A stretch of DNA of 37,558 nucleotides, taken from the IMG/VR virus record IMGVR_UViG_3300025141_000300, positions 1 through 37,558 of that record. One strand, 5' to 3'. The position numbers and the translations under genes are program-made. Under the pieces are notes generated by a model. The model was not told the origin of the DNA. It did no database searches and saw only the letters and a list, made by a program, of their open reading frames with translations. The stretch comes from a virus. Shown in pieces: positions 13,207-18,348 of the stretch; the stretch's first letter is position 1, and each line of letters begins with the position of its first letter.

Positions 13207-13220
13207 GGGTGGGCCCGCCC
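13207..13220. repeat. GGGTGGGCCCGCCC near-palindrome, copy 4
   Basis: Exact copy. It sits between two divergent promoters, 18 nt from the minus -35 and 23 nt from the plus -35, a typical operator position. Confidence 0.8.
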
Positions 13221-13243
13221 CCAGATCTGCAAAAATTTTTTAG

Positions 13244-13272
13244 TTGACAAAGGCTATGGGATATTATAAGAT
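13244..13272 (+). promoter_or_regulatory. Sigma70-like promoter, plus strand
   Basis: TTGACA (13244-13249), 17 nt, TAAGAT (13267-13272). The spacer contains ATGGGATA. It is preceded by an A/T-rich AAAAATTTTTTAG UP-like stretch. Predicted start near 13279, which is the A of an ATG, so the first mRNA may be leaderless. Confidence 0.65.
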
Positions 13273-13392: not shown

Positions 13393-13740
13393 ATGAAATA
13401 CTGCCAAGGAACAAAGTGTCACGAATATAGAACGAAAGATCGTATTCGTGGCACGAAAGGAAATAAGTCTTATCAAACTAGACGCAGATCATCTTTTTAT
13501 TACTCGGATAATTTTTGCTCTCTTAATTGTCAGAACGATTGGCTTAATAAATATATTGAACAAGCTTTAAATCATTTTGGAAGAATAACTGAGCCTAAAA
13601 AAACTGAATGCGATAATGCTTGGTATAAAGAATATGATTGGCGCAATGGAACTAATCATTACTTCGTTAATGATTTACTTGGTCAACGCATTCCAATTAC
13701 AGAAGAACAATACGATGATGACAATTTAATTAGACCTTGA
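13393..13740 (+). CDS. Small zinc-finger-like protein
   Basis: 115 aa. Cys pairs at C4/C9 (YCQGTKC) and C42/C46 (FCSLNCQNDW) resemble a treble-clef or zinc-ribbon site. The segment between them is basic, with KSYQTRRRSSFYYSD just before the second pair. The C-terminal half is acidic, ending TEEQYDDDNLIRP. Proteins of this type, with FCS..C..DW motifs, occur in marine phages as I recall, without an assigned role. Nucleic-acid binding is an inference. Its stop codon lies within the -35 box of the next promoter. Confidence 0.75.
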   Translation: MKYCQGTKCHEYRTKDRIRGTKGNKSYQTRRRSSFYYSDNFCSLNCQNDWLNKYIEQALNHFGRITEPKKTECDNAWYKEYDWRNGTNHYFVNDLLGQRIPITEEQYDDDNLIRP

Positions 13741-13765
13741 CAGTTATAGGATTTTATGTTAATAT
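13737..13765 (+). promoter_or_regulatory. Promoter driving the structured noncoding region
   Basis: TTGACA (13737-13742) overlaps the TGA of the preceding gene. A 17-nt spacer containing TATAGGAT is followed by TAATAT (13760-13765); predicted start about 13772. No protein-coding gene follows for about 740 nt, so the product is likely an RNA. Confidence 0.6.
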
Positions 13766-13865
13766 AAAATATTGCTGAAGATAAACGGGTCTCGACCTGT
13801 GGATGATAAGCAAAGCCAATCGGCGCGTGGTGATAAATCAATTTATTGAATTTATGAAACGCGCC

Positions 13866-13925
13866 CTTGAGCCCAGATCCAGTGCCCAGAGATTAAGAGG
13901 AATTCCCGCTGGATCTGGGGTCAAG
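13866..13925 (+). other. Repeated long stem, copy A
   Basis: Arms CTTGAGCCCAGATCCAG (13866-13882) and CTGGATCTGGGGTCAAG (13909-13925) pair over 17 positions except one G-G mismatch at position 6. Loop of 26 nt. Confidence 0.8.
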
Positions 13926-14025
13926 TTTAAAGGTCGTCTGGCCATTGCTGGACTATATTTCAGGTCGTGATGTCCTTTGGATATAGAATTGTATAACGCG
14001 TAAGAAGATTCTCGCCTGCGAGACA

Positions 14026-14139
14026 CTTGAGCCCAGAACTATTGCTAGACCTAAAGATGTCTAGAACCCTTTAATTAGGGAAAGATGGCGAAACCATCTA
14101 AAATATCGGGTGACATCCGGTGATAGTTCTGGGGTCAAG
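14026..14139 (+). other. Repeated long stem, copy B (multibranched)
   Basis: Arms CTTGAGCCCAGAACTAT (14026-14042) and ATAGTTCTGGGGTCAAG (14123-14139) have the same 17-position pairing and the same G-G mismatch at position 6. The 80-nt interior holds at least three further hairpins. Confidence 0.8.
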
Positions 14140-14190
14140 CACACCTGTTAAAGTCAGGGCTCAGGATATCCTGAGGGCTGCTTGGCCAAA

Positions 14191-14258
14191 CTTAAGCCCT
14201 GATCTCTGGTTGGCACACTTGTAATAAGCTGATCGGCGCCCAGAGATCTGGGGTTAAG
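14191..14258 (+). other. Repeated long stem, copy C
   Basis: Arms CTTAAGCCCTGATCTCTGG (14191-14209) and CCAGAGATCTGGGGTTAAG (14240-14258). Seventeen of 19 positions pair. The G-G mismatch at position 6 is kept, and the outer stem has a G-C to A-U change on both arms relative to copies A and B, i.e. compensatory. Confidence 0.8.
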
Positions 14259-14373
14259 CATAAGCTCCAATTGGATGCGGTTCTTCAGTGAACATTGTTT
14301 GGCCATGGCCAAGTTGTAAGTGTTACAAGTAATGGTTTCGCGCGATGTAAAAAACCGCTTGGCCGTAAGATCC

Positions 14374-14421
14374 CAAGCCCTCAAGCCCTCAAGCCTTCAA
14401 GCCCTCAAGCCTTCAAGCGGG
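14374..14421 (+). repeat. CAAGCCYT octamer tandem repeats
   Basis: Five consecutive 8-bp units CAAGCCCT or CAAGCCTT (14374-14413) plus a sixth, CAAGCGGG, that merges into the GGGTGGGCCCGCCC element. It lies between the structured RNA region and the next promoter. Confidence 0.85.
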
Positions 14422-14432
14422 TGGGCCCGCCC
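14419..14432. repeat. GGGTGGGCCCGCCC near-palindrome, copy 5
   Basis: Exact copy placed 28 nt upstream of the -35 box of the consensus promoter at 14461. Confidence 0.8.
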
Positions 14433-14460
14433 AGTAAAGTACAGGAAAAAAATTTTTTAG

Positions 14461-14489
14461 TTGACAGGTCCGGGGATCTGGGATATAAT
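14461..14489 (+). promoter_or_regulatory. Consensus sigma70 promoter
   Basis: TTGACA (14461-14466), 17-nt spacer, TATAAT (14484-14489): perfect in both boxes. It is preceded by an A/T-rich UP-like stretch, AAAAAAATTTTTTAG. Start about 14496, followed by AAGAAGAGGT and the ATG at 14513. Confidence 0.85.
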
Positions 14490-14512: not shown

Positions 14513-14779
14513 ATGCAACTAGAAAAACCAAAAAAGAAAAAAATAAAATGGCACGACCAGACTGTGGTGATGCCCTTCAACTGTAGTGTATACGAAGAGA
14601 AGACGGTAAAAATTAAGAATAGATTCAGTGGTGAAGAAACGGAGATGCCAGGTTACGCAGCTTCAGTCTATGATACCATCATCGGTGCTGAGCGTTTTGA
14701 AGCCTGGGACATTGTTCGGGCTGGCTTAGACTGGTTCAAGAAGTACTTTCCAAAACAATACATGGTGGTCCTTGATTAA
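14513..14779 (+). CDS. Small conserved-type protein, unknown
   Basis: 88 aa. It starts MQLEKPKKKKIKWHDQTVVM, has central beta-rich PFNCSVYEEKTVKIKNRFSG and ends with a helix, FEAWDIVRAGLDWFKKYFPK. No catalytic motif. It is read from a fully consensus promoter with a proper ribosome site, so probably well expressed early. It is coupled to the next gene through TAATG. Function unknown. Confidence 0.7.
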   Translation: MQLEKPKKKKIKWHDQTVVMPFNCSVYEEKTVKIKNRFSGEETEMPGYAASVYDTIIGAERFEAWDIVRAGLDWFKKYFPKQYMVVLD

Positions 14780-14979
14780 TGAGACTTAATTCAAGACGAT
14801 CACTACTAAGATATTTTACGATGGCGGATGAAGATCTTCCGCCCTCGTATGTGAAGAGCTGCGAAAAATTCCTGAAAAAAATAAAACAAAACAGTAAGAG
14901 CTCAAGCGCCCGAGCGGGTGGGCCCGCCCATAAAGAATCAGGGCACGAGCGGCCAAGCTTGACAAGCCGCAAGCTATAG
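14779..14979 (+). CDS. Small basic protein running into the next promoter
   Basis: 66 aa from the ATG that overlaps the previous stop (TAATG); a second ATG at 14821 (MADEDLPPSYVKSCEKFLKK) is possible. The last ~25 residues are encoded by the CAAGC/GGGTGGGCCCGCCC module and part of the promoter of the next gene, so that end is probably a by-product of the inserted regulatory sequence. Function unknown. Confidence 0.5.
   Translation: MRLNSRRSLLRYFTMADEDLPPSYVKSCEKFLKKIKQNSKSSSARAGGPAHKESGHERPSLTSRKL
14916..14929. repeat. GGGTGGGCCCGCCC near-palindrome, copy 6
   Basis: Exact copy preceded by CTCAAGCGCCCGAGC, similar to the sequence before copy 5, and 29 nt upstream of a TTGACA box. Confidence 0.8.
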
Positions 14980-14987
14980 GATATTAT
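14959..14987 (+). promoter_or_regulatory. Sigma70-like promoter for the zinc-ribbon/GP88-like pair
   Basis: TTGACA (14959-14964), 17 nt with CTATAGGA, TATTAT (14982-14987). Predicted start about 14993-14994, coincident with the ATG at 14993, which has no ribosome binding site: a probable leaderless start. Confidence 0.7.
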
Positions 14988-14992
14988 AAGAT

Positions 14993-15166
14993 ATGAAAGA
15001 AAAATATGATTTACCAGATGGCTGGACTTGCATAGGCTGCGGAGATCAATATCTAGAAGACACTGAAGGCAAGCACATCGCTAACTATGATCAGGGCACA
15101 TTGTGCAAAAAATGCGACGATGATGACAAGCTCTGGCACAACGACACAATTAATAATTTAAAATGA
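14993..15166 (+). CDS. Small zinc-ribbon protein
   Basis: 57 aa. Two CxxC pairs, CIGC at 13-16 and CKKC at 38-41, form a plausible zinc ribbon. The rest is acidic (CDDDDKLWHNDT). The ATG is at the predicted transcription start. The stop overlaps the next ATG in ATGA, so it is coupled to the GP88-like gene. The role is unknown, possibly nucleic-acid or protein binding. Confidence 0.7.
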   Translation: MKEKYDLPDGWTCIGCGDQYLEDTEGKHIANYDQGTLCKKCDDDDKLWHNDTINNLK

Positions 15167-15771
15167 AAAAGAAAGAAGCAAGTAAGATCACCGGAGGACT
15201 GAGCGCACCAGGCAAAATGCCTGAGGGCTCATATAACCTGCCGGCCCGCGCCTGTCAGACTGGCGCTAAGCTCAGAGAGATTCCCGGCACGCCGTGCTAT
15301 GGCTGCTATGCCTTCAAGGGCCGTTACAACTTCCCGAACGTTAAGGACGCCTTAAGCAGGCGCCTGGACTCGTTAACACATCCAGACTGGGTTCAGGCCA
15401 TGGCTGTGTTGATCAAAGGCAAGAAGCATTTCCGCTGGCACGACTCCGGAGACCTGCAAGGGCCCGAGCACCTTAAAAAAATTTTTGAAGTCTGCAAGCT
15501 TACGCCGGATACAATGCACTGGCTGCCAACACAAGAGCGAAAGTACTTACAATTCCTGGATCCGGACATAATACCGCCCAATTTAATTATTAGACTATCC
15601 AATGCAAAAAATGACACGAAGCCCGGCAACGCCTGGACCCACTGGTCTACAGTCGTGAAGAGTCCCCGAGCTGGCCATGTGTGCCCGGCCCCGGAACAGG
15701 GCAACAGCTGCAAAGACTGCAGAGCATGCTGGTCAAAAGATGTCAAAGAAATTCAGTACAGGCTACATTAG
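15163..15771 (+). CDS. GP88-like cysteine-rich phage protein
   Basis: 202 aa. Features: SYNLPARACQTGAKL, then GTPCYGCYAFKGRYNFPNV, the conserved block HFRWHDSGDLQGPEHL, HWLPTQERKYLQFL, and a C-terminal Cys cluster VCPAPEQGNSCKDCRACW. The arrangement C-x(13)-C-x2-C plus C-x8-C-x2-C-x2-C could hold a metal or Fe-S cluster. It resembles the phage gene 88 family (GP88), whose biochemical role is not known to me. The coding sequence is clearly richer in GC than most of the window, hinting at separate ancestry. Confidence 0.7.
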   Translation: MKKKEASKITGGLSAPGKMPEGSYNLPARACQTGAKLREIPGTPCYGCYAFKGRYNFPNVKDALSRRLDSLTHPDWVQAMAVLIKGKKHFRWHDSGDLQGPEHLKKIFEVCKLTPDTMHWLPTQERKYLQFLDPDIIPPNLIIRLSNAKNDTKPGNAWTHWSTVVKSPRAGHVCPAPEQGNSCKDCRACWSKDVKEIQYRLH

Positions 15772-17580: not shown

Positions 17581-18348
17581 TTACTCGCTAATCTGTTCAT
17601 TTTTTGTATCTTTCTGGTTTTTGTTCTGGTTACAATTCCTGTAATACTCATCAATTTTGCGAAGGAATGTGTGTTGGTAGTGGACAAATTCCTTGTCCGC
17701 AACTTCAAACTTCTGAAACAGGCCATCTTTAGAACACATAAGAACAACTCCTGATTGTATCTTAGTTCCATAAACATAATTGTGTGCCATTGCATAGGCT
17801 CCTAATTGGACAAAATAGTCCTCTATCCACTCCCTACGTTTTGGCTTATTGGTTTGTTTAAAGTCTATTATACTTTCACGCGAATTATAAATTCCCACCA
17901 CATCTGTTTGACCGGCATAAAGACCGGGGTAATGTAGCGTTACTTCAGTGCCCCAGACCTCTTCCAGGTCCCCGAGCCCCGATTCTATGACCTTTTTGGC
18001 CATGGATTCTGCCTCTCTGCCTACCGCCGTTAGGTCCTTGTGCCCTGTTCCCTTAATGAAGGCCTCTAGATACGTATGCATAGCCGTACCTCTTAACGCC
18101 GCAATATCCTTTATTCGATCAGCGCTTTCCGCTCCGACTCGTGCTCTCCAAGCAGCTAGAGACTGTCGCTTCTCTTCCGACTGGGTTGCAGAAATAATGG
18201 TTGTAACACTTGGTAACTTTTCGTGACCAATATCATAGTGTCTGGACCCCTGGATCAGGGACCGAATACTTCTAGGGTAGATAAATTTTTTATTCCACTT
18301 CACAGGTGCTCTCTCATCTGGCTCATCATACAAATTCCACTCATACAT
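17581..18348 (-). CDS. PD-(D/E)XK exonuclease (RecB/Cas4-like)
   Basis: 255 aa. Motifs in order: RGTAMHTYLEAFIKG with His91, LEEVWGTEVTLHY with Glu135, LYAGQTDVVGIYNSRESIIDFKQT with Asp149 and Asp162-x-Lys164, and YFVQLGAYAMAHN with Gln181 and Tyr185. This is the RecB-family nuclease signature. Phage relatives act as 5'-3' or host-DNA-degrading exonucleases and in recombination. Starts 8 nt inside the SET gene, so translationally coupled. No Cas4-type Cys cluster. Confidence 0.85.
   Translation of the reverse strand: MYEWNLYDEPDERAPVKWNKKFIYPRSIRSLIQGSRHYDIGHEKLPSVTTIISATQSEEKRQSLAAWRARVGAESADRIKDIAALRGTAMHTYLEAFIKGTGHKDLTAVGREAESMAKKVIESGLGDLEEVWGTEVTLHYPGLYAGQTDVVGIYNSRESIIDFKQTNKPKRREWIEDYFVQLGAYAMAHNYVYGTKIQSGVVLMCSKDGLFQKFEVADKEFVHYQHTFLRKIDEYYRNCNQNKNQKDTKNEQISE

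Follow-up and report, generated by a model that had tools for sequence, protein, structure and literature searches.

A pelagiphage locus beside the terminase genes that probably encodes a self-associating RNA of exchangeable hairpin cassettes

Phages of marine SAR11 bacteria carry a locus that probably specifies a non-coding RNA made of exchangeable hairpin cassettes, which would associate with its own copies through several private kissing loops. We describe it from positions 13737-14421 of a viral record of 37,558 nucleotides (IMGVR_UViG_3300025141_000300), the whole of which we call the window. The same modular element occupies the same site, between the divergent terL and terS genes, in hundreds of IMG/VR contigs. 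Comparison of these sequences supports a hairpin structure on the + strand, modular exchange, the replacement of palindromes by other palindromes and one conserved genomic place. In the literature searched, which covered the field in part, the element is not described, and the record of a cultured relative has no annotation for it. To our knowledge both the cassette organisation and the exchangeable palindromes are new, and they suggest an undescribed class of self-assembling phage RNA.

The initial annotation had pointed to a stretch without a credible reading frame, and this is borne out: 13737-14421 holds no credible gene, and no open reading frame above 76 aa lies wholly inside 13745-14420 on either strand. 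Among related arrays of 250-900 nt, 5 of 45 are open throughout in some one of the six frames, and the longest frame covers a median of 0.55. A protein-coding reading was rejected because no frame is conserved among the related arrays. ARAGORN called no tRNA or tmRNA in the window, and the element is not counted among these RNAs. Its upstream neighbour is a gene for a 115-aa protein (13393-13740); downstream, the consensus promoter reported before is confirmed with a 12/12 match at 14461-14489 and precedes an 88-aa gene (14513-14779). None of the neighbouring 115-, 88- and 57-aa proteins matches a known family. A sigma70-like promoter belonging to the element itself had also been claimed. The site is there (Table 1), but a scan found 14 promoter-like sites where 8.4 (sd 3.1) were expected, and a single 10/12 match is not beyond chance alone. 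Across 143 related arrays, promoters of at least 11/12 within 450 nt upstream number 57 on the sense strand and 15 on the antisense strand.

The stretch 13740-14430 folds far more stably than its shuffles, at -258.8 kcal/mol where 20 dinucleotide shuffles gave -200.1 (sd 8.3; z -7.1), a comparison set beforehand, and the reverse strand folds with similar stability, as expected for stems. At least ten stems had been noticed before; more than ten are found, and the plan that had been overlooked is that they repeat as three hairpins with the same arms, CTTGAGCCC...GGGGTCAAG (A1 to A3 in Table 1). Covariation, the other proposed check, appears in homologous contigs: over 38 aligned modules 98.5% of cells are paired, the score is 0.340 against 0.087 after shuffling (0/500), and 8 of the 16 stem pairs change on both sides. 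In all 180 modules both pair 15 and pair 16 are formed, and at each of them every one of the four Watson-Crick combinations occurs, as does U.G. Of about 307 modules, 293 have a G.G mismatch at pair 6, even where the search did not demand it, and pair 10 is usually T.T. In stem pairs 12-19 about 100 cells are G.T or T.G and 19 are A.C or C.A. Such wobbles read as wobbles on the + strand only, which shows that the + strand, the one downstream of the promoter, is the folded and functional single strand.

Table 1. Parts of the element in the window, with their positions
Feature	Positions	Strand	Observation
Sigma70-like promoter TTGACA-17-TAATAT	13737-13765	+	10/12 match, TG before -10; overlaps stop codon of the 115-aa gene
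Conserved 5' domain TTGCTGAAGATA-hairpin-GATGATAAGCAA, closed by UUGC/GCAA	13771-13813	+	8 distinct loci, covarying apical hairpin
H0 hairpin GGCGCG...CGCGCC, flush with arm 1	13822-13865	+	Support stem changes compensate in relatives
A1 hairpin: arm1 CTTGAGCCC, payload palindrome GAATTC (13900-13905), arm2 GGGGTCAAG	13866-13925	+	
B1 domain, unit 1 arm2 to unit 2; ACGCGT 13996-14001; without canonical arm3	13926-14025	+	Homologues in L071, L175, L349 and others
A2 hairpin, multibranched payload, conserved core GGGAAAGATGGCGAAACCATCTAAAATATCGGGTG	14026-14139	+	Homologues in L071, L175, L133, L355
B2 payload with GATATC (14165-14170)	14140-14180	+	Close relatives in L009/L142 and L154
arm3 CTTGGCC	14181-14187	+	Can pair with arm2 GGTCAAG in place of arm1; AAA linker 14188-14190
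A3 hairpin, arms CTTAAGCCC/GGGGTTAAG	14191-14258	+	Compensatory G-C to A-T change in arms
B3 domain with CAATTG, CCATGG, CGCGCG	14259-14357	+	
arm3 CTTGGCC, unit 3	14358-14364	+	Sequence; consensus of related arrays
Five 8-nt CAAGCCYT direct repeats	14374-14418	+	The repeat array claimed earlier for the end of the locus
GC-rich hairpin GCGGGTGGGCCCGC, possible element end	14417-14430	+	No U-run directly after

Rfam gave no match at the gathering threshold in the window; a search of 13720-14440 to E 5 returned only chance matches to miRNA and sRNA models, and ten related loci searched to E 1 gave none. The earlier remark that neither GOLLD nor ROOL is recognisable in the sequence agrees with this. 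The selected structured RNA then proposed is supported by the comparison, with one qualification. No conserved overall fold was demonstrated, and as judged from sequence the locus is an open-ended array of exchangeable hairpin cassettes and not a single giant fold.

The cassettes are set in a constant frame. Each unit follows the plan arm1-A-arm2-B-arm3 (CUUGAGCCC...GGGGUCAAG...CUUG[G/A]CC), and the arms are near-invariant and keep the G.G mismatch. The arm3 motif CTTG[G/A]CC occurs 18-125 nt past the A module in 177 of 272 cases (2 after shuffling), and the first bases of B pair with the last more often than when shuffled (0.70 vs 0.41 at the second pair). Since arm2 (GGGGUCAAG) is complementary to arm1, G.G mismatch included, as well as to arm3, either pairing is feasible, and co-transcriptional strand exchange at arm2 is possible. 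A second arm subtype, CTGATCCC/GGGATCAG/CTGATC, is present in at least 120 contigs; its third arm matches too (106/172; 5 shuffled), so all three arms have changed together. Between one and five A hairpins were detected per locus, and an array holds up to nine payloads. Compensatory change is visible within the window already, in the A3 arms (CTTAAG.../...TTAAG), and the support stem of H0 reads GGCGCTC/GAGCGCC and GGCGTC/GACGCC in two relatives (L046 and L054). Such flush hairpins were counted in 60 of 198 cases, compared with 108 of 990 at control ends.

In contrast to the near-invariant arms, which alone are shared, the payloads are hypervariable: clustering of 462 A and B payloads gave 260 groups. 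Payloads are common to A, B and H0 positions, to different phages and to both arm types. One payload core was found in A and B positions and in both subtypes with differing support stems; the core TTTCCATAGGGCCAAA, for example, is carried on CAG/CTG, CGC/GCG or GAC/GTC. The same payload is met in different neighbourhoods, which indicates that modules recombine. A repertoire of this size, shared between phages and positions, would also suit independent trans-acting RNAs, each cassette acting against the host or its defences as a protein decoy, aptamer or antisense RNA and being exchanged like an arsenal, and some payloads, A2 among them, have strongly conserved cores and no palindrome swap. We regard this as unlikely, since it leaves the palindrome-for-palindrome replacement described below unexplained.

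The genomic place of the element is constant. Relatives of the 88-aa protein led to 28 loci, most of them with such hairpins upstream, and four pattern scans through IMG/VR found 39, at least 120, at least 120 and 66 contigs; as the collection grew, the distinct A hairpins with common arms rose from 61 to 180 and then to 280 (from 267 loci). In 252 loci that have the element, TerL lies upstream in 127 of 129 and is encoded on the opposite strand in 127; for TerS, 150 of 151 are downstream and all are on the same strand. Subtype 2 is placed alike (TerL upstream 50/51; TerS on the same strand 81/81). Identity between the TerL of the window and its counterparts is 64% for HTVC027P and 59% for HTVC023P, both isolated on the SAR11 strain HTCC1062, and the phages that carry the element are HTVC023P-type pelagiphages. 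HTVC027P, a cultured Pelagibacter phage reached through TerL, has a subtype 2 element, read by eye, at 18050-18099 (minus strand) with arm3 at 17940, likewise between terL and terS. A search of 84,980 prokaryote genomes matched only the SAR11 single cell AG-404-L13 (L169, CACEXE010000006.1, 16001-24000), whose 62-kb contig holds a pelagiphage terL and three units and would represent an infected cell or a prophage-like state. A blastn search of INPHARED phages with the window element and two other arrays gave nothing meaningful, and the G000 search picked up nothing beyond the element and a 35-nt repeat on the promoter side. Two contigs (L113 and L177) have units in both orientations, which means that a genome can hold more than one copy of the element.

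This position raises the question of a packaging RNA, a ring or scaffold that would sit on the terminase or portal by means of kissing loops. The element is found between terL and terS in almost every locus, subtype 2 and HTVC027P included, and the packaging RNA of phi29 (pRNA) multimerises through loop-loop pairing too. One to five units per locus and hypervariable payloads fit a motor of fixed stoichiometry poorly, however, Rfam gave no pRNA match, and closeness to the terminase genes may be accidental; we consider a packaging RNA quite unlikely.

The strongest indication of self-association comes from the payloads. Self-complementary hexamers are replaced by other self-complementary hexamers in conserved flanks (GUAUAC/GUGCAC/GCAUGC; ACCGGU/CGCGCG/CUCGAG). 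Examples are GTTAAAATCCT-[GTGCAC / GCATGC / GTATAC]-TTTG, GGAATAAT-[ACCGGT / CGCGCG / CTCGAG]-TGATG and CCCTG-[GTCGAC / ATGCAT / CTCGAG / GTGCAC / TTCGAA / GACGTC]; in the window, the wobble palindrome TGATCG of A3 (14230-14235) is CGATCG or CGTACG in relatives. Among aligned relatives the palindrome is kept in 28/47 pairs with two changes, 21/24 with four and 2/2 with six, in 24 of 48 families, whereas the mirror and other control symmetries are kept in 2/23, 3/25 and 1/27 at two changes and never at four. In coding DNA of the same phages the values are 50/938, 2/158 and 0 at two, four and six changes. The result was replicated in the independent subtype 2, gathered afterwards, which keeps 16/58, 11/45 and 3/3, and many of its pairs with several differences are not palindromic, possibly owing to one large family that aligns poorly. 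Between subtypes the values are 8/13, 8/8 and 3/3; in both of these sets the control symmetries keep 0 to 2 at any number of changes. Being neighbours, the two bases at the centre of a hexamer cannot pair within one strand, and thus the constraint acts between two copies. Single changes off the palindrome favour a + strand wobble weakly (17 vs 12).

Palindromes containing GC are enriched about twofold (132 vs 77, 101 vs 59, 30 vs 14) and those of A and T alone are depleted (18 vs 30), which is what a need for a stable duplex of six pairs would predict; 59 of the 64 possible palindromes are in use. Consensus folds place the hexamer in a 14-nt hairpin loop (families 2 and 13) or a long loop (families 4 and 7), and by our reading of them in a short loop of about 6 nt (families 1 and 5). 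At least one GC-containing palindromic hexamer is present in 382 of 531 payloads, in part by chance, and some payloads have no palindrome. The palindromes inside one array are not significantly more distinct from each other than chance would give (16 of 327 pairs share one, 20.1 expected).

Could the palindromes arise without selection? Inverted repeats are known to mutate by quasipalindrome correction, and template switching at hairpins might perfect palindromes in this way. It should perfect the arms, however, and not exchange a 6-nt core in unchanged flanks; moreover, one and the same length is found in family after family, GC content plays a part and coding regions keep only the 2/158 given above, so that such an artefact is most improbable. 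Alternatively, the palindromes and hairpins might work as untranscribed DNA, serving as sites for packaging or recombination, as decoys for restriction or as sites where proteins bind. Hexamer palindromes are indeed two-fold symmetric DNA sites, the modules recombine and the site lies between packaging genes. Yet a sequence-specific DNA-binding protein would not accept so wide a range of palindromes, AT-only ones are depleted, and the palindromes are located in loops of covarying hairpins. The G.T wobbles and the conserved G.G and T.T mismatches favour one strand, and sense promoters are enriched upstream. A DNA element is in our judgement quite improbable.

For a self-associating RNA, which we prefer, the following can be proposed. 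We infer that the locus is transcribed, that its palindromes adopt kissing-loop geometry and that multimers form. Within the constant frame, many payloads would expose a six-base self-complementary sequence in a hairpin or internal loop, and copies of the same RNA would bind like with like through symmetric kissing loops. Several different palindromes per transcript would make the RNA multivalent, and this could yield a defined or closed homo-oligomer, as in ROOL or GOLLD, or an RNA condensate in the infected SAR11 cell. Since palindromes are swapped between phages in unchanged flanks, each phage seems to keep a private pairing code. In its fullest form this would be a naturally evolved, programmable RNA self-assembly, with cassettes exchanged in a three-arm frame and lineage-private palindromic loops that co-assemble only with their own copies into an RNA body in the infected cell; we put this forward as a tentative possibility, short of probable. 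That the multimer might be a scaffold or compartment serving replication or packaging is our guess.

Among known RNAs, GOLLD, ROOL and OLE are the closest in kind: large structured non-coding RNAs with poorly understood function, GOLLD and ROOL from phages. Kretsch et al. used the adjacent-base palindrome argument together with cryo-EM for the kissing loops OLE L9.3 and GOLLD L21a, where GGCC/GAUC/AGCU in OLE and GC/CG in GOLLD are palindrome-to-palindrome covariation at adjacent bases (PMC12286853). The pelagiphage element has the same symmetric covariation of self-complementary loops. Those three are known homo-oligomers (PMC12286853). Their covariance models do not match the pelagiphage element, and it differs in being a cassette array in constant arms without a conserved global fold, in having several palindromes per RNA, and in lying at terL-terS and not near tRNA islands. 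The retroviral dimerisation initiation site likewise presents a self-complementary hexamer in a loop and tolerates various palindromes, but it is one dimer site on an RNA genome, compared with several on a non-coding RNA of a DNA phage. The phi29 pRNA shares the phage origin, loop-loop multimerisation and a link to packaging, which in the pelagiphage element is genomic, but uses unlike complementary loops in one fold, and its covariance model does not match. Type III toxin-antitoxin systems (ToxI and relatives), present in phages too, have tandem structured RNA units; these are near-identical direct repeats, unlike the variable pelagiphage payloads, and no ToxN-like endoRNase gene is found among the 115-, 88-, 57- and 202-aa neighbours of the window element.

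Natural self-assembling RNAs are few and their roles in phages unknown; if the proposal is right, it adds a widespread marine class from phages whose host, SAR11, is among the most abundant bacteria on Earth. Swappable hexamer contacts in fixed scaffolds would then be nature's equivalent of the kissing-loop RNA nanostructures and condensates made by design. The sequence evidence for self-recognition by palindromic loops is strong, and the natural swaps already act as compensatory mutants. With the cultured pair HTCC1062/HTVC027P and published RNA-seq of its infection, transcription can be tested at once. In HTVC027P, gp33 and gp34, just downstream of the element, form an unusual expression cluster with a peak at 6-9 h (PMC12753301), and rRNA is no longer detectable in some infected cells (PMC11066056); neither observation counts as evidence of what the element does.

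Some further features of the locus may be mentioned. A terminator was considered and rejected: a TTTAGAAT-ATTCTAAA palindrome comes after no more than 21 of 143 arrays, and the window element lacks it; GGGTGGGCCCG occurs within 300 nt downstream in 29 of 143. The 5' domain (13771-13813) has an internal loop GCUGAAGAU / GAUGAUAAGC, possibly kink-turn-like, and begins the predicted transcript in at least 8 relatives. In the A2 payload (14076-14113) the core is strongly conserved and the stem covaries; it is seen in both arm subtypes (L071, L175, L133, L355) and, showing no palindrome swap, could be an aptamer or protein site. A 202-aa GP88-family protein (PF17338, E 2.8e-29; window 15163-15771) lies downstream of the element on the same strand in 142/142 loci where it was found. 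CAAGC-type repeats, possible regulator sites, stand ahead of the -35 boxes in many relatives. Upstream of promoters the GC-rich palindrome GGGTGGGCCCGCCC turns up repeatedly (13207-13220, 14420-14433 and 14917-14930, also 11111, 11171 and 11204), and near-identical promoter modules (AAAAATTTTTTAGTTGACA ... GGGATATWATARGAT) are found at 13231-13272 and 14448-14489, with a similar one at 14959-14987.
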